The position numbers and the translations under genes were made by a program. The notes beneath the pieces are model-generated. The model ran no database searches. It saw nothing but the letters and a program-made list of their open reading frames with translations, and had not been told where the DNA came from. 19,217 nt of DNA, taken from contig JAQGOE010000223.1 of assembly GCA_028293725.1 (NCBI GenBank), positions 1 through 19,217 on the forward strand, written 5' to 3'. This DNA is from Gammaproteobacteria bacterium (GTDB lineage: Bacteria; Pseudomonadota; Gammaproteobacteria; Steroidobacterales; Steroidobacteraceae). Positions 3,859-16,800 of the stretch are shown here, piece after piece (the stretch's first letter is position 1; each line of letters starts with the position of its first letter).

Positions 3859-4683
3859 ATGAGCTTGAGAACCAAGCTCCGCTGCGTTGGGCTGACCGAT
3901 ACGGGCAAAGTCCGCGAGCACAACGAGGACACGATTGCTGTCGACGCCGACATCGGTCTGCTGGTGCTCGCCGATGGCATGGGCGGCTATAACGCCGGCG
4001 AGGTCGCCAGCGGCATCGCCGTCAAGACCATTGTGAACCTCGTTAAAGAGCAGGTGGAGCGGGAGGACCTCAACGTCCAGGACCGCGACGCCGGCCTGTC
4101 CCGTCCGACCATCATCCTGCGGGATGCCATCGTTCGGGCGAACAAGATCATCTATCAGACGGCCCGCACCCAGCCCCAATGCGAGGGGATGGGCACCACT
4201 GTCGTGGCCGCCCTGTTCTTCGATAACAAGATAACTATCGCCCACGTCGGCGACTCCCGGCTTTACCGTCAACGCACCGACAAGCTGGAGCAGGTCACGA
4301 TGGACCACTCCCTCCTGCAGGAGCTCGTCGACCGGGGCTTTTATTCCGCCGAAGAGGCGCAGCGCGCGGCCAACAAGAACTACGTCACACGTGCGCTCGG
4401 TGTCGAGCCCAATGTAGATGTGGAAATCCAGGAAGTGCCCGTCAATAAGGGCGAAGTCTTCATTCTCTGCTCGGACGGCCTGTCCGACATGGTTGAGGAT
4501 GAAGATATTCATTTAACGATAAACACCTTTAGTGCTAATCTGGATACTGTCGCCAAGCAACTGATTCAACTGGCGAATGACAATGGGGGGCGGGACAACG
4601 TCTCGGTCGTCATGGCGCACGTCATTGACGCATTCCCGGCCCGCACGAAGATTTTCGACAAGATTCTGGGCTGGTTCGGCTGA
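3859..4683 (+). CDS. PP2C-family (PPM) Ser/Thr protein phosphatase, PrpC/Stp1 type
   Basis: This metal-dependent cytoplasmic phosphatase removes phosphate from Ser/Thr residues of proteins. The 274 residues carry the canonical PPM metal-binding and catalytic motifs: HNEDT near 21-25, ADGMGGYNAGE at 38-48 (metal-binding Asp39), GTTVVAALF near 112-120, HVGDSRLYR near 129-137, DHSLLQELV near 149-157, VTRALG at 176-181, CSDGLSDM at 204-211 (metal-binding Asp206) and GGRDNVSVV at 243-251. The start ATG 3859 has CAGGA 6 bases upstream. The FHA gene follows after 28 bases, probably in one transcript, so the FHA protein or its binding partners are plausible substrates. No Ser/Thr kinase is present in the window. 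The family call is very secure; the substrate is inferred. Confidence 0.95.
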   Translation: MSLRTKLRCVGLTDTGKVREHNEDTIAVDADIGLLVLADGMGGYNAGEVASGIAVKTIVNLVKEQVEREDLNVQDRDAGLSRPTIILRDAIVRANKIIYQTARTQPQCEGMGTTVVAALFFDNKITIAHVGDSRLYRQRTDKLEQVTMDHSLLQELVDRGFYSAEEAQRAANKNYVTRALGVEPNVDVEIQEVPVNKGEVFILCSDGLSDMVEDEDIHLTINTFSANLDTVAKQLIQLANDNGGRDNVSVVMAHVIDAFPARTKIFDKILGWFG

Positions 4684-4711
4684 CACTGACAACGAGCGGA
4701 AGGCGAAGCAC

Positions 4712-5428
4712 ATGGCAAGGTTGGTCTTGAGCCTGGACGGCCAGGTGATGGCGGAATACAACATGAACAAGGAGCGGTACACCATCGGCCGCCTCCCTGA
4801 CAATGACATCCGCATTGACAACGCAGCCGTCAGCGGTCACCACTCGCTGATCATCAACATCCTCAACGATTCGTTCCTCGAGGATCTGAACAGCACGAAT
4901 GGCACCTACGTCAACGGCAAGCTGATCAAGAAGCACGCTATGCAACACGGTGACGTGGTCACCGTCGGTCATCATCAGCTGCGCTTCGTCGAGGACGACG
5001 AGGCCCAGGACGAATTCGAAAAGACCATGGTGATCCAGCCCTCGGCCCGCCCGGTCGAGAAGGTCCGGACCGCAGCGGAAGTCGCCGACAAGGCGTCCCC
5101 TTCCCTCTCGGCTACGGCGAAGAATCGCGCTCTCACGGGCGACGGCGCCGCGGCCCTGAAGAAGGCCAAACTGCAGGTCCTCTCCGGCGCGTTCGCGGGC
5201 CGGGAACTCGAGCTCAATAAAGCCCTCACGACGCTCGGCCGTCCGGGCATCCAGGTCGCCGCGATTACACGGCGCTCCGAAGGCTACTTCATCGTCCATG
5301 TCGACAGCGGCAAGACCGATGACTTCCCGCTCGTCAACGGCACGCCCATCGGCGCGCTGGCGACGCGGCTGAATGACAACGATGTGATTCAGCTGGCCGG
5401 CGTGAAGATGGGGTTCTTCATAGCTTAG
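4712..5428 (+). CDS. FHA-domain protein with a second, degenerate FHA-like domain
   Basis: FHA domains bind phosphothreonine peptides. In 238 residues there is one well-formed FHA domain (about 1-95) with the expected G26-R27, S41 plus H44 (SGHHS), and S61-T62-N63-G64 followed by N68-G69. A linker rich in Ala, Lys and Pro (about 96-150) contains EKTMVI at 103-108, a Thr context resembling phosphorylated Thr sites in other small FHA regulators (my inference). The C-terminal third (about 152-238) looks like a second FHA fold with LGRPG near 175-179 and VNG near 208-210, but it lacks the Ser/His phosphopeptide contacts. Start ATG 4712 has GGAAGG upstream; an open frame reaching back to 4577 would overlap the phosphatase and is unlikely. 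It is probably co-transcribed with the PP2C gene. Confidence 0.88.
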   Translation: MARLVLSLDGQVMAEYNMNKERYTIGRLPDNDIRIDNAAVSGHHSLIINILNDSFLEDLNSTNGTYVNGKLIKKHAMQHGDVVTVGHHQLRFVEDDEAQDEFEKTMVIQPSARPVEKVRTAAEVADKASPSLSATAKNRALTGDGAAALKKAKLQVLSGAFAGRELELNKALTTLGRPGIQVAAITRRSEGYFIVHVDSGKTDDFPLVNGTPIGALATRLNDNDVIQLAGVKMGFFIA

Positions 5429-7579: not shown

Positions 7580-8425
7580 ATGACCAAACGGCTGAACACA
7601 GGAATGCGGGCCGCGGGATACCTAATCGTCATGAGCGGCCTGCTTGCGGCGCCGTTCGTTGCGGTCGCGCAGGAAGAATACGCGGCTCCCACTGCGCGGG
7701 AAAAGAAAGCCGCCGCGGATGCGGCAGTGTGGAACAAAAAACCGGCGCCGACCGATCCGCGCGACTTCTCCGGAGTGTGGTGGACTCGCGGATATGACCG
7801 CACCTTCCGTCCCGTCACCGATCCGCCGCTCTCGCCGGGCGAAGCCGCCAAGCTCCTCCCGCTGACGCCAGCCGAGGCCGCAAGCCGCCAGCACCACCTC
7901 GATATGGAGAAGGCCGGCACCCCGATTGCCGATGCTCCAACGCAGTGCTTCCCACACGGTGTGCCGCGGCTCATCGCATCACCGTATCCAGTGCAGTACG
8001 TGTACTCGCCGGGCCTGATCACCATCCTCCATGAGACAGCCCACAACGTTCGCTACATTCACATGGACGGCAAGCCGGCCCCCGCCGACACACCGCGGAC
8101 CTTCCTCGGATACTCGGTAGGGCATTGGGAAGGCAACACGCTGGTCGTGTTCACCGACCACTTCAACGATCGCACCCAGATCGACGAGGAGGCGCTGTCG
8201 CACGGGTTCAAACTGACGGTTACCGAGCGCATCACCAAGTTCACCAACAAGTGGGGTGGCGTCGAGCTGCGCAACCGGATCACGATCGAAGACCCGGAGC
8301 ACTTCACTCAACCCTGGACGGCCGAGCGCACCTTCCCGTGGCGCGGCGACATGCGCATCGCGGAGTACTCGTGCGAAGAGAACAATCGGAACGCGCCGAA
8401 GAACGGCATAACGGTGGCCAAATGA
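7580..8425 (+). CDS. Exported protein of an uncharacterised family, first of two tandem paralogues
   Basis: I do not recognise a known function. The 281-residue product has an N-terminal signal peptide (Lys/Arg-containing start, hydrophobic 11-26, likely cleavage after AVA near residue 30), so it should be periplasmic or outer. The mature region contains DFSGVWW (62-68), CFPHGVPRLI (123-132), a His-rich stretch HETAHNVRYIH (151-161), LGYSVGHWEGNTLVV (176-190) and a near-terminal YSCEENNR (263-270). Cys123 and Cys265 could form a disulfide. The paralogue at 8422 shares the C-x2-HG-PRLI, H-x3-H, LGY, EG-LV and terminal Cys landmarks in the same order. Its stop overlaps the next start as ATGA, so the two are probably translationally coupled. 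Similar proteins occur in many soil bacteria (from memory), often near DUF6152 genes. Confidence 0.75.
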   Translation: MTKRLNTGMRAAGYLIVMSGLLAAPFVAVAQEEYAAPTAREKKAAADAAVWNKKPAPTDPRDFSGVWWTRGYDRTFRPVTDPPLSPGEAAKLLPLTPAEAASRQHHLDMEKAGTPIADAPTQCFPHGVPRLIASPYPVQYVYSPGLITILHETAHNVRYIHMDGKPAPADTPRTFLGYSVGHWEGNTLVVFTDHFNDRTQIDEEALSHGFKLTVTERITKFTNKWGGVELRNRITIEDPEHFTQPWTAERTFPWRGDMRIAEYSCEENNRNAPKNGITVAK

Positions 8426-9144
8426 CGCTGGTGACGCGCCCTGCGGGCGCCTTGGTCGCCCTGGCGGGTGTTGTTGCAATGGTCGGCGCGATCCCTGTAG
8501 CGCCGGCGGCTGAGGATGGCCCGCTTTTCGAACAACCGCCGCCCGGCACGCCCAACCTGACAGGCAAGTGGGAAATGCCCAAGCGCATCACCCATCTGCT
8601 CACGAGCGACGGCAAACAGCCCCCACTGAATGCCGCCGGGAAAGTCGAATATGAGAAGCGCCAGGCGGCGCTGCACGCCGGCAACAAGGACATCGATCCG
8701 ATCAATAGCTGCCTGATGCACGGCACGCCACGCTTGATTTATGCGCCCTATCCCTTTCTGATCCTGCAGACCACGCGCAGCGTGAATTTCGTACACGAAG
8801 TGAACCATACGTTCCGGATCATCTATTGGGATAAAGACCTGCCGGATGACCCCGATCCGGACTACCTGGGCTATGCGATCGCCCGTTTCGAGGGGCCGGT
8901 GCTCGTGATCGACACCATCGGCCTGAACGACAAGACCTGGCTGGATTATTCGGGCCTGCCGCACGGGGAGAAGCTGAAGGTCCAGGAACGCTACACCTTG
9001 ACGGACCCCAACACGATCAAGGGCTCGGTCACCCTCACGGACCCCGACTACTACACTGCTTCGTGGACGACCAACTTCACCCTGAAGAAGCAGAGCGGCA
9101 TGCAGATTAAGGAAAACGTCTGTACGGACACCCACAGGATGTGA
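8422..9144 (+). CDS. Exported protein of the same uncharacterised family, second tandem paralogue
   Basis: The 240-residue product has a signal peptide (hydrophobic residues about 8-28, cleavage probably after APAA near 30). The mature part begins EDGPLFEQPPPGTPNLTG. It shares with its upstream neighbour CLMHGTPRLIYAPYP (97-111), HEVNHTFRIIYWD (125-137), YLGYAIARFEGPVLVIDT (148-165) and a terminal Cys234, in the same order but with a shorter N-terminal region. Start ATG 8422 overlaps the preceding stop in ATGA; a longer open frame back to 8125 lies inside the upstream gene and lacks the signal peptide at its start. Function is unknown. Conserved His pairs and a likely disulfide make a secreted binding protein or enzyme equally possible. 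Confidence 0.75.
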   Translation: MTLVTRPAGALVALAGVVAMVGAIPVAPAAEDGPLFEQPPPGTPNLTGKWEMPKRITHLLTSDGKQPPLNAAGKVEYEKRQAALHAGNKDIDPINSCLMHGTPRLIYAPYPFLILQTTRSVNFVHEVNHTFRIIYWDKDLPDDPDPDYLGYAIARFEGPVLVIDTIGLNDKTWLDYSGLPHGEKLKVQERYTLTDPNTIKGSVTLTDPDYYTASWTTNFTLKKQSGMQIKENVCTDTHRM

Positions 9145-9168
9145 CCGGTGCGAAAATGAACACATCGC

Positions 9169-9188
9169 GGGGTGCTGCTTGACACCCC
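9169..9188 (+). other. Small inverted repeat overlapping the putative DUF6152 promoter
   Basis: GGGGTG (9169-9174) and CACCCC (9183-9188) are perfect complements across an 8-base loop. The right arm overlaps the TTGACA box at 9179-9184. It could be a weak hairpin after the upstream gene or an operator; there is no T-run. Confidence 0.3.
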
Positions 9189-9208
9189 TGCCACCCCGGG
9201 TTCATAAA
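9179..9208 (+). promoter_or_regulatory. Putative sigma-70 promoter for the DUF6152 gene
   Basis: TTGACA at 9179-9184 is a perfect -35 hexamer. CATAAA at 9203-9208 lies 18 bases further and matches the -10 consensus at four of six positions. Transcription would start near 9215, giving a leader of about 40 bases before GTG 9258. This suggests that DUF6152 has its own promoter besides any read-through from the two upstream genes. Confidence 0.5.
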
Positions 9209-9257
9209 GTTTGGGCGTGAAGGCAGGTCGGATTTTTACGAGGGGAACTGTCGGACC

Positions 9258-9665
9258 GTGAATGCAAAGCTAGTCATTACCACCGCGTTCCTGAGCGCGC
9301 TGGCAGGCGGCAGTGCCGTCGCCCACCACTCGTTCGCAACCTTCGATCAGACGAAGGAAACGACCCTGGTGGGAACGATCAAGGAAGTCCAGTGGACCAA
9401 CCCCCACATCTGGGTGCAGGTACTGGTCAAGATGCCTTCCGGTGAGGCCGTGGAGTGGTCCATCGAAGGCGGCAGCCCCAACGGGCTCAGCCGGGCGGGA
9501 TGGAAGCGCTCTTCGCTCAATGCCGGAGATCCCGTCGAGATGGTCATTCATCCACTCAAGGATGGCTCCAACGGCGGTAGCCTGGTGCGCGTCTCCGTGA
9601 ACGGCAAGCTCATCGGATCGCCCCGTCCTCCGCCGCCGGAGGGAGCGGAGGAAGGCAAGACCTGA
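9258..9665 (+). CDS. DUF6152-family exported protein with predicted His-His mature N-terminus
   Basis: The 135-residue product has a short signal peptide ending in the signal-peptidase motif AVA (20-22). The mature protein is predicted to begin HHSFATFDQTKE, followed by LVGTIKEVQWTNPHIWVQV (38-56), which are the recognisable landmarks of DUF6152. Later come SIEGGSPNGLSRAGW (68-82) and a Pro/Glu-rich tail. The start is GTG 9258, with AGGGGA 11 bases upstream; an ATG at 9262 is out of frame. An N-terminal His, a second His, and His50 in NPHIW are candidate metal ligands, as in other periplasmic copper proteins with exposed N-terminal His (inference). It lies 3' of the two paralogues and ends 4 bases from the convergent DUF1552 gene. 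Confidence 0.82.
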   Translation: MNAKLVITTAFLSALAGGSAVAHHSFATFDQTKETTLVGTIKEVQWTNPHIWVQVLVKMPSGEAVEWSIEGGSPNGLSRAGWKRSSLNAGDPVEMVIHPLKDGSNGGSLVRVSVNGKLIGSPRPPPPEGAEEGKT

Positions 9666-9669
9666 AGGT

Positions 9670-11013
9670 CTAAACGCCCTCCAGCCGGCCCGTGCTGTCG
9701 CCGAACTTATCGGCGCGCACGTCAAACTTGTCGAGAATACTGAGCAGCAGATTTCCAGTAGGGACGGTGCGGCTCGGATAAGCGAGATGCCGGTCCCCCT
9801 TCAGTTTGCCGCCTGCGCCCCCGACCAGAACGTGTGGCACGTCGTAGTGCAGGTGCTGGTTGGAGTTACCCATGTTGGATCCGTACAGCACCAGCGAGTG
9901 ATCCAGCAAGGTGCCGTCGCCCTCTTTCTGGTCCGCCAGCTTCTTGATCAGGTAGCCGAGCATCTGCACGTGGTAGCGATTGAGCTGTGCGAACCGTTTG
10001 ATCTGACCGGGGTCCTCCGCGTGGTGTGAGCCGCCGTGGAAGCTGATGTTGGTGCCGCTTTCCGGGTACACACGGCCTGTGAGATCACGGGCATACAACA
10101 CAGTCGCGACGCGCGTGATGTCCGCCTGAAAGGCCAGCGCCAGCAGATCGAACTGAATCTGGATGTGCTCGTGGAATGACTCGGGCACGCCGTAGGGCAC
10201 CGCTACATTCGGTACATCCTGCGCGGCCTTCGCCGCAATAGTGAGGCGTCGCTCGATCTCGCGCACGTCGTCGGTATATTGCTCGAGACGCACGCGGTCC
10301 GTGTGCGACACCTGCGGCATGAGCTCGTTCAGGCTGCCGGTCACCGAATCGAGAATACTGCTCTCACGCTCGCGACGCGCGCGCCGCAACTCGGGTGAGC
10401 TGCCGTCACCGAACATCCGCTCGAACACCACTTGCGGGTTGATCTCCATTGGCAGCGGCCGCGTCGGCGACTGCCAGGAGATCGTGTTGGTATAGACGCA
10501 GCTGTAGCCCTCGCCGCAGTTCGTGGAATTCGCCCCCGGGTCCTCGAGGCCGAGCTGCAGGGAGGGCAACAGAGTATTGCGGCCAATCTGCCCAGCGATG
10601 ACCTGGTCGATGGAAGCGCCAACCTCAATGTCGGAGCCCGTTGTCTTGCGGGGCTTGACTGCTGTCAGGTAGGCGGCCGCCACGAAGTGATCGGCTCCCG
10701 TAACACCGGGAGGATTCTCTGAGGACTGCGACCACATTCCGCTGGTCAAAACCACGTGTTTGCGGAACGGCTCGAGCGGCTCATACACGTAGGGAAATTT
10801 GAACCCGGGTGCGCTCGATTCGGGAATCCAGTAACCCGGGCCGACGCCATGGGGTACGAAAGCACCGACGAAACGGGTGGGCAACACCTGCTGCGCATAC
10901 GCGCGAGCGCCGATCGCGGGCAGCATGGACTCCAGGAACGGCAAAGCGAGTGTCGTCCCCAGCCCGCGCAGAAACATCCGTCGCGGCAATTTGCGGTTCG
11001 TCAGAAATACCAT
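9670..11013 (-). CDS. DUF1552-family protein, Tat-exported
   Basis: The 447-residue product starts with a twin-arginine signal: PRRMFLRGLG near 10-19, a hydrophobic stretch and a probable cleavage site after ARAYA near 40. It should therefore be exported already folded. The mature body has the landmarks of DUF1552: FVPHGVGPGYWIP, VLTSGMWSQSSENPPG, ATVLYARDLTGRVYPE, ISFHGGSHHAEDPGQI and LYGSNMGNSNQHLHYDVPH. DUF1552 resembles DUF1501 and may share an alkaline-phosphatase-like fold (from memory), but no activity is established. A Tat route suggests a cofactor or early folding. It is the last gene of the minus-strand unit, starting 2 bases after the stop of the DUF1592-type gene, so translation is probably coupled. 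Confidence 0.88.
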   Translation of the reverse strand: MVFLTNRKLPRRMFLRGLGTTLALPFLESMLPAIGARAYAQQVLPTRFVGAFVPHGVGPGYWIPESSAPGFKFPYVYEPLEPFRKHVVLTSGMWSQSSENPPGVTGADHFVAAAYLTAVKPRKTTGSDIEVGASIDQVIAGQIGRNTLLPSLQLGLEDPGANSTNCGEGYSCVYTNTISWQSPTRPLPMEINPQVVFERMFGDGSSPELRRARRERESSILDSVTGSLNELMPQVSHTDRVRLEQYTDDVREIERRLTIAAKAAQDVPNVAVPYGVPESFHEHIQIQFDLLALAFQADITRVATVLYARDLTGRVYPESGTNISFHGGSHHAEDPGQIKRFAQLNRYHVQMLGYLIKKLADQKEGDGTLLDHSLVLYGSNMGNSNQHLHYDVPHVLVGGAGGKLKGDRHLAYPSRTVPTGNLLLSILDKFDVRADKFGDSTGRLEGV

Positions 11014-11015
11014 CC

Positions 11016-13487
11016 CTAGCCCCCTACATGGTCAACCGGCGGCGGCGCTGGCGCGGCGGCGGTTCCGGTTTTGGCCGGCACCGGATCGGCGTCGGGGACC
11101 ACGTTCATACTGAAGTTGTCGCTGAGCGCCACGGCCGTAACGAGCGCTTTGAGCTTGTAGCCGTCCGGCGCGGCACTCTGCATGACTTTGCGCACCTCGG
11201 GCATGTCGGCATAGTCCATGCCGCGTCCCAGCGCGTACGTCATCAGATTCTCGGTGACGTTGCGCAGATACTGGTCCTGGTGCTTCAACAGGAAGGTGCG
11301 TACGCCGGCCGGTCCGTCCACGGGAGTACCGTCGTACATCTGGCTACGCGCATCTATCGGACTGCTCCGATCCTCCGTACGCAGATGCCCGATCGCATCA
11401 AACGGCTCGAGCGCAAAGCCGATCGGATCCATCATCTTGTGGCAACCCGCGCAAGCCGGGTTGCGGCGATGCTCCTCCATCTGCTCCCGCATCGTCGGGA
11501 TGTGCATGTTGCCCGCAACATCCTCCTTCTTTACGGGCAACGCAGGCACGTTGGCCGGCGGGTCCGGTGCGGGCACACCGATCACGTTGCGCAAGACCCA
11601 GTTGCCACGGATCACGGGTGATGTTCGGCCAGGTTGCGAGGAGATCGTCAAAACGGCGCCCTTGCCCAAGAGGCCCCAGCGCACGCTCTCGCTGGCGTCG
11701 AGCTTCACTCGTCGGAAGTAGCTGCCCTTGACTCCAGGAATACCGTAGAAGTCCGCGAGGCGCTCGTTTACGAACGTGTAGTCCGCTGTGAGGAGGTCGA
11801 GAACGCTGCGATTCTCATCGAGCAGACTCTGGAACAACAACTCCACCTCGCGGCGGAAGGCCTGGCGCAGGTTATCGTCGAAGTCCGGGAACTGGTCCAC
11901 GACCGGGGCATGCGCCGCCAGGTTCCTCAGACCCAGCCACTGTCCGGCGAAGTTGGCCGTTAGAGCGCTCGCGCGTGAGTCGGCGAGCATGCGCTGAACC
12001 TGCTGGCGCAACACGGCCGGCTTGCTCAACTCGTGGGACTGCGCGAGCTGTAACAGCGTGTCATCCGGAATGCTGCTCCACAGAAAGAACGACAGTCGGG
12101 ACGCCAGATCCAGATCGCTCACCTTGTAGGTGGCCCCCGGTGCCAGACTCGCCGGTGTCGATTCGACACGGTAGACAAACTTCGGATCCGACAACGCCCG
12201 CTGCAGGATCGCCTCGACGCCGCCGTCGAAGGAGCCATCACGCCGGGCGTCCCTGTAGAATCTCATCAGGATTTCGATGTCTTTTTGCGTCGCATAGCCG
12301 CGATAGGCGCGCCGAGCGAGCGTGCTTGCGATCTGGAGAGCGCATGACTCCTCTTCCCTACTGTTGGTCGGACGGCAGGTGAGTATCCGCTCGCGGGTCG
12401 GGGAGTCGGTCGCGACCTTGCCGTCGCTCGGGCCATCGATGCGAACGCTGCCGACGTGAGGATAGAACGTGAAACCCGGAAGTCCGCCGGTCTCGATCGT
12501 GCTGCGATCGAACGCATGGTTCAGATCGAGGCCCGGGGCGTAGTCGGTGGCGAGGAAGGTCACACCGATGTGATGCAAGCCGGCCTTGATGGGCTGTTTG
12601 AGATCAATGGTCATGAGCTGGCCGTTGCCCAGGAAATCCTCGTCGAGCCTGCGCTCCACGCGCAAGGCTTTGTCCCAGTCCACCGTGGCCACTTTCTGGT
12701 CGTCGATGAAAAACAGCAGCTGCTCGCCGCGCACCTCGCCGAAGGGCCGGAAATTGCCCATGTTACCGAGGTTCACCGAGAACACTTTCAACGTGTAGTC
12801 GCCGTCCGCCGGGAACGTGTGGTCAATCTTCAAGCCACCGCGAGTGCCAAAAGGTAGCCCCGCAACGTGATAGTTCTGGGTGGTGTCCTCGGCAACGCGA
12901 TATGTGACCTGCGCGGGCGCCGTCGCCATGCCCATTGCGAGCCCGCTCACTCGCGCGGCAGCCGAAAGATAAGCCTCGAGGAGCGCCGGCGACACGGTGA
13001 GCGCACCAGCCTGATTGTCGAAGCCGCGGCTCGAGTCGTCCGCCGTCAGGAATTTCGTCGAGTCAATATCCAGCCCGAGCAGGTCCCGCACGGCGTTCGC
13101 ATACTCCGCGCGATTGAGGCGGTGCAGTTGCGGCTCGTGCAGATCGGGCTTGGCGTAACTGTCAACGTCCGTCTCCAGCGACCTCGCGAGCGTCTGAATG
13201 GTTTCAAAGTCGGGCCGTGGCTTACCCGCTGGGGGCATCATTCCGGCGCGCAACTTTCTGAGCATCCGCTCGACCAGTTTGGCTTCCTCGTGAGCCTTAC
13301 CCGGGTCGAAGATCTCGAACTCCACACCACCGGCGTAATCGCTGTAGTTGTGGCAGTCCATGCAGTATTTGTCGATGAGCGCGCGTTGCGCGGCCGGCGG
13401 CATCGGGTCGGCGGCGAGTGCCGTACCCAGCGCCAGCAAACCACCGGCACCAAGAGAAATTACGCCGAGCTTACGTGTCACTTGCAT
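11016..13487 (-). CDS. Exported heme-c-motif protein with DUF1587, DUF1595, DUF1592, DUF1588 and DUF1585 domains
   Basis: The 823-residue product has a Sec signal peptide (about 1-26, cleaving near ALAA). A PSCyt1-type cytochrome c segment has the heme-binding CMDCH at 42-46, with MMPPAGKPRP as a likely distal Met region. DUF1587 follows (LHRLNRAEYANAVRDLLGLD), then DUF1595 (STLARRAYRGYATQKDIEIL), DUF1592 (ASRLSFFLWSSIPDDTLL), DUF1588 with a second CxxCH (CAGCH near 679-683, then MMDPIGFALEPFD) and DUF1585 (ENLMTYALGRGMDYADMPEV). A Pro/Ala-rich tail ends the protein. The order is the complete architecture known from Planctomycetes, Acidobacteria and some Proteobacteria. ATG 13487 is preferred over TTG 13502 because it begins the signal peptide. 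It overlaps the ankyrin gene by 10 bases. The reaction is unknown; two heme-c sites suggest redox work in the periplasm. Confidence 0.9.
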   Translation of the reverse strand: MQVTRKLGVISLGAGGLLALGTALAADPMPPAAQRALIDKYCMDCHNYSDYAGGVEFEIFDPGKAHEEAKLVERMLRKLRAGMMPPAGKPRPDFETIQTLARSLETDVDSYAKPDLHEPQLHRLNRAEYANAVRDLLGLDIDSTKFLTADDSSRGFDNQAGALTVSPALLEAYLSAAARVSGLAMGMATAPAQVTYRVAEDTTQNYHVAGLPFGTRGGLKIDHTFPADGDYTLKVFSVNLGNMGNFRPFGEVRGEQLLFFIDDQKVATVDWDKALRVERRLDEDFLGNGQLMTIDLKQPIKAGLHHIGVTFLATDYAPGLDLNHAFDRSTIETGGLPGFTFYPHVGSVRIDGPSDGKVATDSPTRERILTCRPTNSREEESCALQIASTLARRAYRGYATQKDIEILMRFYRDARRDGSFDGGVEAILQRALSDPKFVYRVESTPASLAPGATYKVSDLDLASRLSFFLWSSIPDDTLLQLAQSHELSKPAVLRQQVQRMLADSRASALTANFAGQWLGLRNLAAHAPVVDQFPDFDDNLRQAFRREVELLFQSLLDENRSVLDLLTADYTFVNERLADFYGIPGVKGSYFRRVKLDASESVRWGLLGKGAVLTISSQPGRTSPVIRGNWVLRNVIGVPAPDPPANVPALPVKKEDVAGNMHIPTMREQMEEHRRNPACAGCHKMMDPIGFALEPFDAIGHLRTEDRSSPIDARSQMYDGTPVDGPAGVRTFLLKHQDQYLRNVTENLMTYALGRGMDYADMPEVRKVMQSAAPDGYKLKALVTAVALSDNFSMNVVPDADPVPAKTGTAAAPAPPPVDHVGG

Positions 13488-15289
13488 AGGTCCGTTACAC
13501 AAATGGAGGCGAGCGTGCGTCCCTGGGTCGGCACGGGCATCCTGCGCTCAACCATGAGTCGCCGGATGAGGGCGGACGTCTCCGGGTGGGGCACTGCCGA
13601 CTGAACGCCGACGCGAACCAGCCCGTCCGCATAGTCGATCGCCTGCCACGTAATGCCGGAGAGAGCGTGGACAGTGTCACGGCTGCCGATGTCGTGTATG
13701 GAGAGATCGGCTCCGCGTTGGACCAGCAACTCGACGATGTCGTTACGGCCCTTGTGAGCCGCTCCCATGAGCGCAGTGCGCTCATCGAGGGTGTCCTGCG
13801 CATTGACGTCGGCGCCGAGATCGAGCAGCAACTTCACTGCGTCGTACGTTTGTTGCGACGACCATTCGTACGTGACGCCTTCCACCCAGCCGATACCGCT
13901 TGCGACCATGAGTGGCGTCACGTTCCAGATCGTAGCGATCTTCGGGTCGGCGCCGTGCTCCAGCAGCAACTTCATCAGCACGAGATCACCGGACTGAGCG
14001 GCGCGCAGGAACGGCGTAGCGCCGTCTTCGAACAGCCACTGATGAGTGAAGACGGTGCGGGTCTCGGTGCTCGAGCGCATCCGCAGATTGGTATTCGCCC
14101 CGGCTGCCAGGAGCTGCTTGATGTAGTCGAGGTGATCCATGTCCGGTTTGCGCGTCGGATAGTCGCCGCCCTCGATGTTGCGGTTGTCGGTGGCGAGATA
14201 AAGCGGACTCCAGCCACCCTCGTTCTGGATGTTGGGGTTGGCGCCGTGGCCGAGCAGATACAAACCGAGCTTGTAGTACCGGTTCTGGGTCGCGACCAGC
14301 AGCGGTGTCCAGCCGAACTCACTCGTCTCGTTGACGTCCGCCTTGGCCTCCAACAGCACCTTGACCGTCTCGAGATCCCCCTGGCGCGTCGCAAAGATCA
14401 ACGGCGTGAGTCCGCCCCATTGCTTATCGAGCTTGTGCGCGTGCTCGTCGTCGCCAGGGTGCTGATCCAACACTTGCGCCGCAGCAGCCCGTTGCTCCTC
14501 GAGCTTCTTGTGTTTGGCTGCCTGCACGTCGCGCTCCTTTTGCGTGCCCTTCGTCGGGTCGGGAGCGTCCTGATCGACGGTGATGCCTGCGAGGCCGTAG
14601 CCGTGAATGAACTCGTTGATGCGGTCACGGCTCGACGGCGCGAGATATGGCTCGCGCCCGGGCTTGGTGGTAGCGGAGCGCGTGCTGACATCCGCGCCTT
14701 TGGAAATCAGAAAGCGCACAGCCTCGGTGTTCGAGTTCGCGGCCGCCCACATGAGCGCGGTCGTGCCACGCAGCTGCTCCTTTGCGTCGACTTTCACACC
14801 CCTGTCGGTGAGGGCCTTCATGACCTGCACATTTCCCGTGCGGGCCGCCATCATCAATGGGGTTTCGCCGTGACTGAGTGCCAGACTGGGATCGGCGTGG
14901 GCGCCGAGAAGCAATCGGACCACATCGGCATTACCCGCCTCGCACGCCAGCAATAGCGGCGTCATTCCAGTCGCGGTCCGGACATTGGGATTGGCTCCGG
15001 ACTTCAGGAGCTGCGACGCGACTTGGCTATCGCCGTGGTAGGCAGCCCAGTGGAGAGCCGTGCTGCCGTCTGGCTGTGTGGAGTTAACGTCCGCCTTCGC
15101 GGCGATGAGGTGATTGAGCTGTGCCTGATCCTGACGCATGACTGCATCAGCCACATCGCTCCCTGCCGCCGCGGCGACACTGGAAAAGAGCACGCCCCAC
15201 AAGACGAGTAGCGCCAGCTGCGCCTCGAGGCGGACTTTACAGAACCTGGTCGTCTCGATCGTGTCCCCCTGGGCCAGGATTTGGCCCAT
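13478..15289 (-). CDS. Exported ankyrin-repeat protein
   Basis: The 603-residue product begins with a charged region and a hydrophobic segment (about 23-42), ending AAAAG, consistent with a Sec signal peptide with an extended n-region. About eleven ankyrin repeats follow in two blocks: roughly 44-205 (for example GSTALHWAAYHGDSQVASQL, GMTPLLLACEAGNADVVRLL) and 291-560 (GGLTPLIFATRQGDLETVKV, GATPFLRAAQSGDLVLMKLL). Between them is an insert of about 85 residues (205-291), Lys/Glu/Gln/Ala-rich and partly coiled-coil-like. Ankyrin stacks bind other proteins, so this is probably the partner or scaffold of the two downstream products. It is the first gene of the unit; its stop overlaps the next ATG by 10 bases. 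The start ATG 15289 has only a weak ribosome binding site. Confidence 0.88.
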   Translation of the reverse strand: MGQILAQGDTIETTRFCKVRLEAQLALLVLWGVLFSSVAAAAGSDVADAVMRQDQAQLNHLIAAKADVNSTQPDGSTALHWAAYHGDSQVASQLLKSGANPNVRTATGMTPLLLACEAGNADVVRLLLGAHADPSLALSHGETPLMMAARTGNVQVMKALTDRGVKVDAKEQLRGTTALMWAAANSNTEAVRFLISKGADVSTRSATTKPGREPYLAPSSRDRINEFIHGYGLAGITVDQDAPDPTKGTQKERDVQAAKHKKLEEQRAAAAQVLDQHPGDDEHAHKLDKQWGGLTPLIFATRQGDLETVKVLLEAKADVNETSEFGWTPLLVATQNRYYKLGLYLLGHGANPNIQNEGGWSPLYLATDNRNIEGGDYPTRKPDMDHLDYIKQLLAAGANTNLRMRSSTETRTVFTHQWLFEDGATPFLRAAQSGDLVLMKLLLEHGADPKIATIWNVTPLMVASGIGWVEGVTYEWSSQQTYDAVKLLLDLGADVNAQDTLDERTALMGAAHKGRNDIVELLVQRGADLSIHDIGSRDTVHALSGITWQAIDYADGLVRVGVQSAVPHPETSALIRRLMVERRMPVPTQGRTLASICVTDLCK

Positions 15290-15456
15290 TTACACCGATC
15301 AGCGGCGCGCAGCAGGCCTATCCCCCAGCGGGATCCACGTACCTACCTACGCGCTACTCGATCCTAGCTTCGTGGTGCAGGGGGTGAAAGGCGAACCGCA
15401 CATTGGTCCGACAGGTGAATTATCGGGGGCGGGGAACGTACGCTAGGAGCAGGCTG
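15290..15456. other. Intergenic region between the DksA-like gene and the ankyrin gene
   Basis: These 167 bases should hold the promoter of the ankyrin-DUF1592-DUF1552 unit (minus strand) and the end of the DksA-like transcript. A GATAAT-like -10 on the minus strand near 15417-15422 has no matching -35. I see no hairpin with a T-run, no repeat and no small gene. Confidence 0.4.
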
Positions 15457-15837
15457 CTAGCGCTTGGCCTCGCGGGCCTTTTCCTCGGCAAAGGTGTAGA
15501 TCGACTCCGGAACCGCTTCCAGCCGCTCCCGCGGGATGGGCTCGCCGCTCTGGTCCGACACTCCATAAGTGCCCTCTTCGATCTTCTTCAGAGCGCGATC
15601 CACCCGTTCCAGCCGCGCGACATCGCGCACGACCAGGTTACCCTCACGCTCGAGCATGTCGAGCCTCTGGGCGTCGTCTTCGTATTCCCGCGACCCGCTG
15701 GCGGCACTCTCGGACCTGACGCTTTCCTCTTCGGACTCATCGTCGCTCGCGGCGGCCAGCAACTCCGCCCGGACCTTGCTCAGGCGCTGACGCTGTTTTT
15801 CGACGAAAGCCGCGTCGAGTTTGGGTACATTGGCCAT
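15457..15837 (-). CDS. DksA/TraR-family protein lacking the zinc-finger cysteines
   Basis: DksA-type proteins insert a coiled coil into the secondary channel of RNA polymerase and alter promoter kinetics with ppGpp. The 126-residue protein has the expected helical hairpin (about 8-90), with a tip reading EYEDDAQRL (51-59), where Asp55-Ala56 align with the D-x-A tip residues of DksA. The globular end keeps the family wording YGVSDQSGEPIPRERLEAVP (91-110), but all four zinc-ligand positions lack Cys; the protein has no Cys at all. An acidic insert (SDDESEEES, 31-39) lies in the hairpin. Cys-poor DksA homologues that work without zinc are known. GGAG lies 8 bases before ATG 15837. It diverges from the FecR-like gene by 66 bases. 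Confidence 0.85.
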   Translation of the reverse strand: MANVPKLDAAFVEKQRQRLSKVRAELLAAASDDESEEESVRSESAASGSREYEDDAQRLDMLEREGNLVVRDVARLERVDRALKKIEEGTYGVSDQSGEPIPRERLEAVPESIYTFAEEKAREAKR

Positions 15838-15889
15838 CAGAATAGCTCCATCGTCCTGCAGAGAATGTCCGAGACAGTAGCAGTTTCGT

Positions 15890-15893
15890 AGGA
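15890..15893 (+). promoter_or_regulatory. Ribosome binding site favouring ATG 15904 of the FecR-like gene
   Basis: AGGA (within TAGGAAG) is 10 bases before ATG 15904 but only 1 base before the upstream in-frame GTG 15895, so the ATG is the better start. Confidence 0.5.
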
Positions 15894-15903
15894 AGTGAAC
15901 ACC

Positions 15904-16800
15904 ATGCTGGAGGACCTCAGTGACCGCGCGGTGCAGGGCCCCGAGAAGGCCCGTGAGGAAGCCGCGATGTGGCTGGCGCGTCTCGCGCGTGGCTTGCGCG
16001 CGGACGAAGCTCCGCCCCTGCGGTATTGGCTGAAAGATCGGATAAATCGCAATGTCATTCTAGACATGGCGCGGCTGTGGCACGGCCCCGACATTCTCGC
16101 GCTGTTGTCCGAGCTCATCCCTGTCGGACCCGAGCCGATGGAGCCGCGTTCGTGGCGCAGCGTCCTGGTTCCCACACTGAAGATCACCGTGGCCGCCGGC
16201 CTGATCGCCTGGATCGTGAGCGGAGAGCAACCGCGGCTCAATTTCCATTCGCACTGGACGCATCTCCAGGGATCCCTCGTCGTTCCGCGGACACTGCTCG
16301 AGCGCGGTAGATATTTCACTGCAGTCGGAGAGCGCGGACAGATCGAGTTGGCTGATGGAACCACGGTCACGTTGAACACGGATACCCACCTGGGCATCGC
16401 CTATTCGCAAAACTTGCGGCAGGTGATCATTCCCTATGGCGAAGTCAGCTTCCAGGTGGCTCCCGATCCCCAGCGGCCGTTCTTCGTGTTGGCGGGCAGG
16501 CGCCGGTTCGAAGCATTGGGTACCCACTTCAACTTGCGGGTGCTCACTCCCGACAACGTGGAACTCACGGTGACCGAGGGGAACGTGAAGGTCCTCTACA
16601 TTCCAACACCTCGGACCGAGACGCCGGCCGAAGCAAGACTGCACGACAACATGATCAACGATGACACCACGGTGGGCGCCCTCGAGACAGCCCTGCTCGA
16701 GCCGGGGTTTCAGTTCGTGCGCAAGATCGGGGCGAACGAGGCGGACACACTGCTCGCCTGGACGCGTCGTATTGACAGCACTCGCCGGCCCTCCCGGTAG
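15904..16800 (+). CDS. FecR-like membrane protein (anti-sigma/sensor type) with a short C-terminus
   Basis: FecR proteins sit in the inner membrane, bind an ECF sigma factor with their cytoplasmic N-terminus and sense TonB-receptor signals in the periplasm. In 298 residues there is an N-terminal DUF4880-like region (about 15-60; EEAAMWLARLARGLR...LRYWLKDRINR), a single membrane segment (about 87-106, TLKITVAAGLIAWIV), and the FecR domain (about 135-213) with GRYFTAVGERGQIELADGT, GEVSFQVAPDPQRPFFV and FEALGTHFNLRV. The protein ends about 15 residues after LLAW, where usual FecR proteins continue for a further 60-70 residues into the C-terminal receptor-contacting domain. No ECF sigma factor or TonB receptor gene lies in the window. 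It ends 4 bases from the convergent AAA ATPase gene. The FecR call is good; the role is unclear. Confidence 0.83.
   Translation: MLEDLSDRAVQGPEKAREEAAMWLARLARGLRADEAPPLRYWLKDRINRNVILDMARLWHGPDILALLSELIPVGPEPMEPRSWRSVLVPTLKITVAAGLIAWIVSGEQPRLNFHSHWTHLQGSLVVPRTLLERGRYFTAVGERGQIELADGTTVTLNTDTHLGIAYSQNLRQVIIPYGEVSFQVAPDPQRPFFVLAGRRRFEALGTHFNLRVLTPDNVELTVTEGNVKVLYIPTPRTETPAEARLHDNMINDDTTVGALETALLEPGFQFVRKIGANEADTLLAWTRRIDSTRRPSR

Follow-up and report, generated by a model that had tools for sequence, protein, structure and literature searches.

Three adjacent genes in the stretch analyzed here (the window, 19,217 nucleotides from a Steroidobacteraceae draft genome) encode an ankyrin-repeat protein, a DUF1592-type protein with two CxxCH motifs, and a DUF1552 (HXXSHH) protein, and genes of the same three families stand together repeatedly, both within single genomes and in another bacterial class. 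They have stayed linked while their order changed, have diverged in step, and in some genomes are present in many old copies; their products very probably work together. Our best reading, to which we give about an even chance, is that the triad forms a redox module outside the cytoplasm, amplified in some genomes, which includes an AnkB-like ankyrin and acts on glycosylated or polymeric compounds. Among the relatives listed, those that bear a taxon name are Steroidobacteraceae or gammaproteobacterial MAGs. The genes in question and their neighbors are as follows.

13478..15289, minus strand: ankyrin-repeat protein gene, 603 aa from the first ATG (PF00023/PF12796)
11016..13487, minus strand: DUF1592-type two-CxxCH protein gene, 823 aa (ATG at 13487, stop at 11016)
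12423..12920, minus strand: predicted CBM35/6/36-like jelly-roll domain, unannotated, at about residues 190 to 355 of the DUF1592-type protein
9670..11013, minus strand: DUF1552 (HXXSHH) protein gene, 447 aa (PF07586, E = 9e-81)
9258..9665, plus strand: DUF6152 protein gene (PF19649, E = 9.1e-35)
8422..9144, plus strand: "WB" secreted protein gene, no Pfam match
7580..8425, plus strand: "WA" gene, a WB relative (matched by the iterated WB model, 3.5e-70)

Transcription on the minus strand runs from the ankyrin gene through the DUF1592-type gene to the DUF1552 gene. The reading frames, overlap, and spacing claimed in the original prediction were confirmed: the DUF1592-type ATG sits within the last ankyrin codons (ATGCAAGTGA, a 10-nt overlap), and the DUF1552 ATG lies 2 nt past the DUF1592-type stop, with a G-rich stretch ahead of it. 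An overlap and gap of this size are ordinary for operons and mean little alone, and therefore we tested linkage; what goes beyond chance is the conservation of the gene set. A promoter scan of positions 9100 to 15900 gave no sites (shuffles, mean 1.4), and terminator-like sites in the same interval numbered 6 versus 4.6 in shuffles.

Conserved linkage, which the original prediction had set as its own test, proved strong, repeated within genomes, and present across classes. With each species represented by a single genome, a scan found 13 loci with a DUF1592 relative, and the five genomes behind five of them have 49 DUF1552, 51 PSD4, and 51 ankyrin places (ankyrin rows thinned manually to roughly one for each protein). 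PSD4 lies within 6 kb of 43 of the 49 DUF1552 places and an ankyrin within 6 kb of 36; conversely, DUF1552 is that close to 36 of the 51 ankyrin places. The 13 DUF1552 places without an ankyrin include five divergent copies (149 to 174 bits) and several near a contig start. DUF1552 occurs in 6 of 274 genomes in a class sample (its center, G002, included) and in 22 of 147 in an order sample, where nine genomes have at least five matches and several at least 14, some of these being fragments. The family is therefore patchy yet amplified. In a phylum sample centered on G002, 185 of 299 genomes had A2 matches (best match outside G002, 104.5 bits); ankyrins in general are thus widespread, and only their linkage counts.

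We assembled 80 stretches around DUF1552-type places, 81 with the window. They sample some of the copies (4 of 14 matches listed in G580 and 8 of 14 in G667), and L049 to L052 were picked because they have an ankyrin but no DUF1552 match, which biases the set slightly in favor of ankyrins. We counted DUF1592 genes that fall entirely within a stretch and reach 450 aa or more: all 63 long ones (at least 740 aa) encode two CxxCH motifs and all 11 short ones encode one. An ankyrin ORF lies within 4.5 kb of 57 of the 63 long genes, and beside 45 of the 47 with at least 3.5 kb visible on both sides. It is near 2 of the 11 short genes, both fragments of long genes read in two frames, so that genuine one-CxxCH forms with an ankyrin number 0 of 9 (long versus short, Fisher p = 2e-6 on raw counts). 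The ankyrin therefore goes with the two-CxxCH form. DUF1552 lies within 5 kb of 66 of 79 DUF1592 genes and an ankyrin within 5 kb of 62; all three genes were called at 50, some having been masked by overlapping ORFs or by the ends of contigs. Median pairwise identities across the 50 triads are 44%, 43%, and 37%, and the copies are therefore old.

For distance tests and the tree of gene order, we used a clean set of 33 single-triad loci, tandem loci excluded. Distance matrices agree closely (r = 0.89 for DUF1592-DUF1552, 0.85 for DUF1592-ankyrin, and 0.89 for DUF1552-ankyrin; 0 of 999 permutations reached the observed r for each pair), values to which common ancestry of the genomes contributes. 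For the 8 loci of G594 taken by themselves, r was 0.86, 0.75, and 0.83, with 0, 32, and 7 of 999 permutations as high. G677 (5 loci) gave 0.84 for DUF1592-DUF1552 and 0.34 and 0.16 for the ankyrin pairs, and G667 (4 loci) gave 0.26, 0.29, and -0.63; loci in these two genomes are too few to judge, yet unsupportive. An earlier test that included tandem loci was high in G001 (6 loci) and weak for the DUF1592 pairs in G002 (7 loci). As to order, 35 of the 50 called triads read DUF1592-DUF1552-ankyrin, 12 share the window's ankyrin-DUF1592-DUF1552, two have a divergent ankyrin, and one is odd. Mapped onto a DUF1552 tree of the clean 33-locus set, the order label requires four changes and the window-type order three, all three forced by well-supported branches; a first tree of 44 rows, which included tandem loci and the misread row L037, gave six changes. 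The ankyrin has changed position at least three times while still linked, and this rearrangement with linkage kept argues for function.

The same evidence bears on what the ankyrin does. It could be a stress-type helper, protecting a nearby heme enzyme from peroxide and sharing the operon only, with the DUF1592-type and DUF1552 proteins as the catalytic pair. Pseudomonas aeruginosa that lacks AnkB has reduced KatB activity and is less resistant to H2O2 (PMC2830190), and pairs without an ankyrin do occur: one-CxxCH DUF1592/DUF1552 pairs are found in G001, G624, and G695 and on plasmid stretches of Sphingobium herbicidovorans and Planctomyces SH-PL62, where neither annotation nor the ankyrin profile revealed an ankyrin. 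The co-divergence of the ankyrin with both partners over the 33 loci, however, exceeds what a general helper would need, and we consider this alternative somewhat unlikely.

The full triad also occurs outside the Gammaproteobacteria: in the soil alphaproteobacterium Novosphingobium sp. KACC 22771, a 1.3-Mb plasmid carries DUF1592, DUF1552, and, in the same row, an ankyrin ORF that scores 134.9 bits against the ankyrin profile; this was the one triad found on that megaplasmid, the replicon searched. Other genes recur near the triads. In five genomes, at least 24 of 29 matches to a Tat-type MBL-fold hydrolase at 240 bits or more lie within 6 kb of DUF1552, a zone that covers 3 to 5% of these genomes; weaker matches (E ≤ 1e-40) do so in 2 of 27 cases, among the DUF1552 matches listed. 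The hydrolase is near 25 of 62 DUF1552 places, again among matches listed. Its profile, which separated MBL-fold from WB proteins where single-linkage clustering had merged them, was built from 13 sequences, all from triad loci, and therefore favors triad-linked forms; it has no match in the window. A prokaryotic cytochrome b561 (PF01292) adjoins two triads (L024 and L125), putative c′-like proteins are near L024, L125, L046, and L047, and on the S. herbicidovorans plasmid a cytochrome c′ (PF01322) and a b561 follow the DUF1592-DUF1552 pair. Of the 81 stretches, as raw counts, 21 have TonB receptors and 9 have PQQ dehydrogenases.

Some neighbors raise the question of whether polycyclic glycosides of a steroid- or terpenoid-like kind, and not polysaccharides, are what the module breaks down, which we think unlikely. 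Genes near the S. herbicidovorans pair encode HsaA-like, HsaC-like, and Rieske oxygenase proteins, a lead towards steroid-like substrates and nothing firmer, and relatives of lignostilbene dioxygenase are found near some triads. Yet the HsaA-like and HsaC-like scores (397.8 and 269.4 bits) fall below the curated cut-off of 450, as the Rieske matches fall below theirs, and that plasmid pair is without an ankyrin. RPE65, moreover, lies within 8 kb of DUF1552 in only 6 of 32 places across nine genomes; with the other 26 farther away, we held it back as a specific triad partner.

On the opposite strand, the DUF6152 gene converges on DUF1552 with 4 bp between stops, and WA overlaps WB by 4 bases. 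The closest WB relatives (76% and 75%) adjoin the nearest triads (G001:C195 and G004:C52), and the next (53%) is about 11 kb away, on the contig of a further near relative. Both DUF6152 and WB were set aside as specific partners because they are amplified genome-wide (98 and 95 matches, respectively, in one 3.7-Mb genome); DUF6152 is associated with the triad and not a member of it. Such amplification of other families in the same genomes would fit a neutral co-amplification of the triad as a gene block without functional interaction, but this is highly improbable, given that linkage survived several changes of order, the copies are old, the ankyrin tracks the two-CxxCH architecture, and the triad recurs in another class.

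The large protein carries the two CxxCH motifs originally claimed for it (C42/C45/H46 and C679/C682/H683), both invariant in 27 aligned rows. Its Pfam domains, all above gathering scores, place it in the DUF1592/PSCyt3 family, in the order PSD3-PSD5-PSD4-PSCyt3-PSD2 over 11016 to 13487 (PF07626, PF07637, PF07631, PF07627, and PF07624). The overall architecture is an N-terminal cytochrome-like region, PSD3, a CBM-like domain, and then PSD5-PSD4-PSCyt3-PSD2. The putative CBM-like domain is unannotated and in the structure model seems to resemble CBM35/6/36; it took up the matches in a fold search with the whole model, for which Foldseek returned no match at E ≤ 0.001. Against PDB sequences, the DUF1592 profile had no matches, and phmmer with the N-terminal region found no cytochrome at E ≤ 10, its two matches (E of 1 to 1.9) being non-cytochrome.

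The DUF1552 protein has the HXXSHH motif and further invariant H/D/C residues. Its low-confidence model (pLDDT 53.6) looks like an alkaline-phosphatase/sulfatase, with the fold of the alkaline-phosphatase superfamily. Eleven weak matches of the DUF1552 profile to PDB (E of 0.03 or worse), mainly to ribosomal protein eL24, were taken as chance. The ankyrin, whose true start is possibly slightly downstream of the first ATG, ends in RTLASICVTDLC, with C597 and C602 invariant in a 24-row alignment; we rejected its C-terminal SICxTDLC as a cofactor motif, since something similar is present in only 7 of the 68 ankyrins in the set. Export of all three proteins had been predicted (Sec, Sec, and Tat). 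Read by eye, the N-termini fit: those of the ankyrin and DUF1592-type proteins are hydrophobic, consistent with export, and that of DUF1552 has the twin-arginine stretch PRRMFLRGLG, consistent with Tat. The Tat assignment found no backing in NCBIfam, where DUF1552 matched no family at E ≤ 0.001 and hence no Tat model.

Taken in this light, the products of the three genes would form a single conserved module outside the cytoplasm. The DUF1592-type protein may be a redox protein of the X183/X132 (Cbp2D) type that carries two hemes and a carbohydrate-binding-like domain, assuming that both motifs are loaded with heme, and the Tat-exported DUF1552 protein may be its metallohydrolase-like partner with an alkaline-phosphatase/sulfatase fold. 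DUF1552 could hydrolyze an ester or activate the substrate, and the two-heme protein could carry out or serve redox chemistry on a carbohydrate-bearing substrate. By analogy with the support that AnkB gives KatB in Pseudomonas, the exported ankyrin might dock to or protect the heme protein, its docking site being perhaps the N-terminal heme/CBM-like half, which is present only in the long form. Substrates would be glycosylated or polymeric compounds, probably plant- or microbe-derived, encountered either in the periplasm or on the surface of the cell, and electrons may be exchanged with the respiratory chain or O2/H2O2 via small cytochromes (c′ and b561 in some loci). In amplifying lineages, the diverged copies could each serve a different substrate, helped by accessory enzymes of their own (MBL-fold hydrolase, PQQ dehydrogenase, and TonB receptor).

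It is possible, though we doubt it, that the triad represents a new class of redox machine, in which a two-heme carbohydrate-binding cytochrome and an alkaline-phosphatase-fold metalloenzyme sit on an exported ankyrin scaffold, with at least a dozen diverged copies in a genome, each for a different glycosylated or polycyclic soil compound; were this true, each copy with MBL-fold, PQQ, or TonB companions would handle its own soil compound. Families of unknown function with many copies per soil-bacterial genome probably bear a large catabolic load, and the triad is relevant to the redox partners that bacteria use when they break down polymers. With the partners fixed (exported ankyrin, MBL-fold hydrolase, and c′/b561 in some loci) and a triad-bearing isolate named in Novosphingobium sp. 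KACC 22771, the role of the DUF1592/DUF1552 (PSCyt3/HXXSHH) proteins is directly testable.

Earlier work on Cellvibrio and Teredinibacter has dealt with X183/X132 proteins that contain DUF1587 (PMC8981238, PMC12542752, PMC10916295). As the type is defined in PMC8981238 and PMC10916295, the DUF1592-type protein of the window resembles it in motifs and may belong to it, having an N-terminal CxxCH, DUF1587, which Cbp2D also carries, and a C-terminal CxxCH. Cbp2D and Cbp2E of Cellvibrio japonicus and TERTU_2913 and TERTU_3803 are secreted proteins linked to carbohydrate use, with an X183 CxxCH and a C-terminal X132 CxxCH. Growth on filter paper is poor when cbp2D or cbp2E is knocked out (PMC8981238, PMC12542752); LPMO reduction can be initiated by the X183 cytochrome of Cbp2D (PMC12542752), and the Teredinibacter X183 domains could not do this (PMC10916295). 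X132 has no characterized homologue to those authors' knowledge (PMC10916295), and a Cellvibrio CBM2 protein named DUF1592 appears in a lignocellulose multi-omics table (PMC6004670). Whereas the Cbp2D and TERTU proteins carry CBMs, X158, X122, or FN3 parts, a Pfam scan of the window protein gave no CBM, X158, X122, or FN3, and its putative CBM35/6-like fold is embedded; the accessible text of the three papers describes no DUF1552 or ankyrin partner.

In Verrucomicrobia, PSCyt3 genes usually adjoin one constant family of genes whose function is stated to be unknown, and some PSCyt genes encode CBMs (PMC5615132). DUF1552 is named three times in that source, none of them in the main text, and we infer that it is the neighbor family. 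The same cytochrome family thus stands beside a constant family there, with no ankyrin described in the parts available. The original prediction of an undescribed system therefore overstated the case for two of its three components, because the PSCyt3 neighbor family and the X183/X132/DUF1587 proteins had already been reported. Across the DUF1592, DUF1552, and PSCyt3 literature, covered in part and mostly without subscription papers and supplements, we found no account of the ankyrin partnership and amplification, nor of an MBL-fold partner of the triad.

DUF1552 aligns weakly by hhalign with DUF1501 (PF07394) in the C-terminal motif region, and it shares its predicted fold with sulfatases and NPPs of the alkaline-phosphatase superfamily but is a separate Pfam family. 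For the ankyrin, the parallel is AnkB-KatB, where a small operon encodes a periplasmic ankyrin together with a heme enzyme whose activity depends on it; in the window, likewise, an exported ankyrin is encoded with an exported heme protein, as judged for export and heme by sequence inspection. The partner of AnkB is a catalase, whereas that in the window has DUF1592-type domains and no catalase domain in Pfam. Set beside these systems, in which, as far as the available sources go, the DUF1592-type protein and the PSCyt3 neighbor family are already known, the part that appears new is the ankyrin as a near-constant partner, together with the amplification.

Pairs of DUF1552 with the short, one-CxxCH DUF1592 form that lack the ankyrin gene have a recurrent neighbor set of their own. 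Across the eight such loci compared (fetched stretches L046, L047, L048, L119 to L122, and L124), a ~380-aa exported protein lies beside the pair in every case and a ~470-aa protein in seven; the ~470-aa protein of L047, the sole one scanned, has Lipoprotein_15 repeats, and for most of the eight a TonB receptor falls within the stretch. Some DUF1552 copies have lignostilbene/carotenoid-dioxygenase relatives close by (6 of 32 RPE65 places in nine genomes, at ≤8 kb), and at two other loci the DUF1592 gene is split between frames, which may reflect sequencing error or decay.

L126, 2220-3656: dioxygenase relative
L132, 1-1195: dioxygenase relative
G580 C9, G594 C4, G605 C97, G667 C180 (genome, contig): dioxygenase relatives
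L020, 2-2317: DUF1592 gene in two pieces, different frames
L137, 4974-7413: DUF1592 gene in two pieces, different frames

The window itself carries further genes.

3859-5428, +: PP2C-type phosphatase and adjoining FHA-domain protein
7580-9665, +: DUF6152 and WA/WB-type secreted genes
15895-16800, +: gene for a FecR-domain protein, lying on the strand opposite to the triad and upstream of it

The phosphatase and FHA-domain protein are a signaling pair with no relation to the triad finding. No sigma factor was recognized beside the FecR-domain gene, because the preceding ORF (15403-15891) had no match in a Pfam scan. The DUF6152 and WA/WB-type secreted families share a huge amplification, with 98 DUF6152 and 95 WB matches in a single 3.7-Mb genome (G594).
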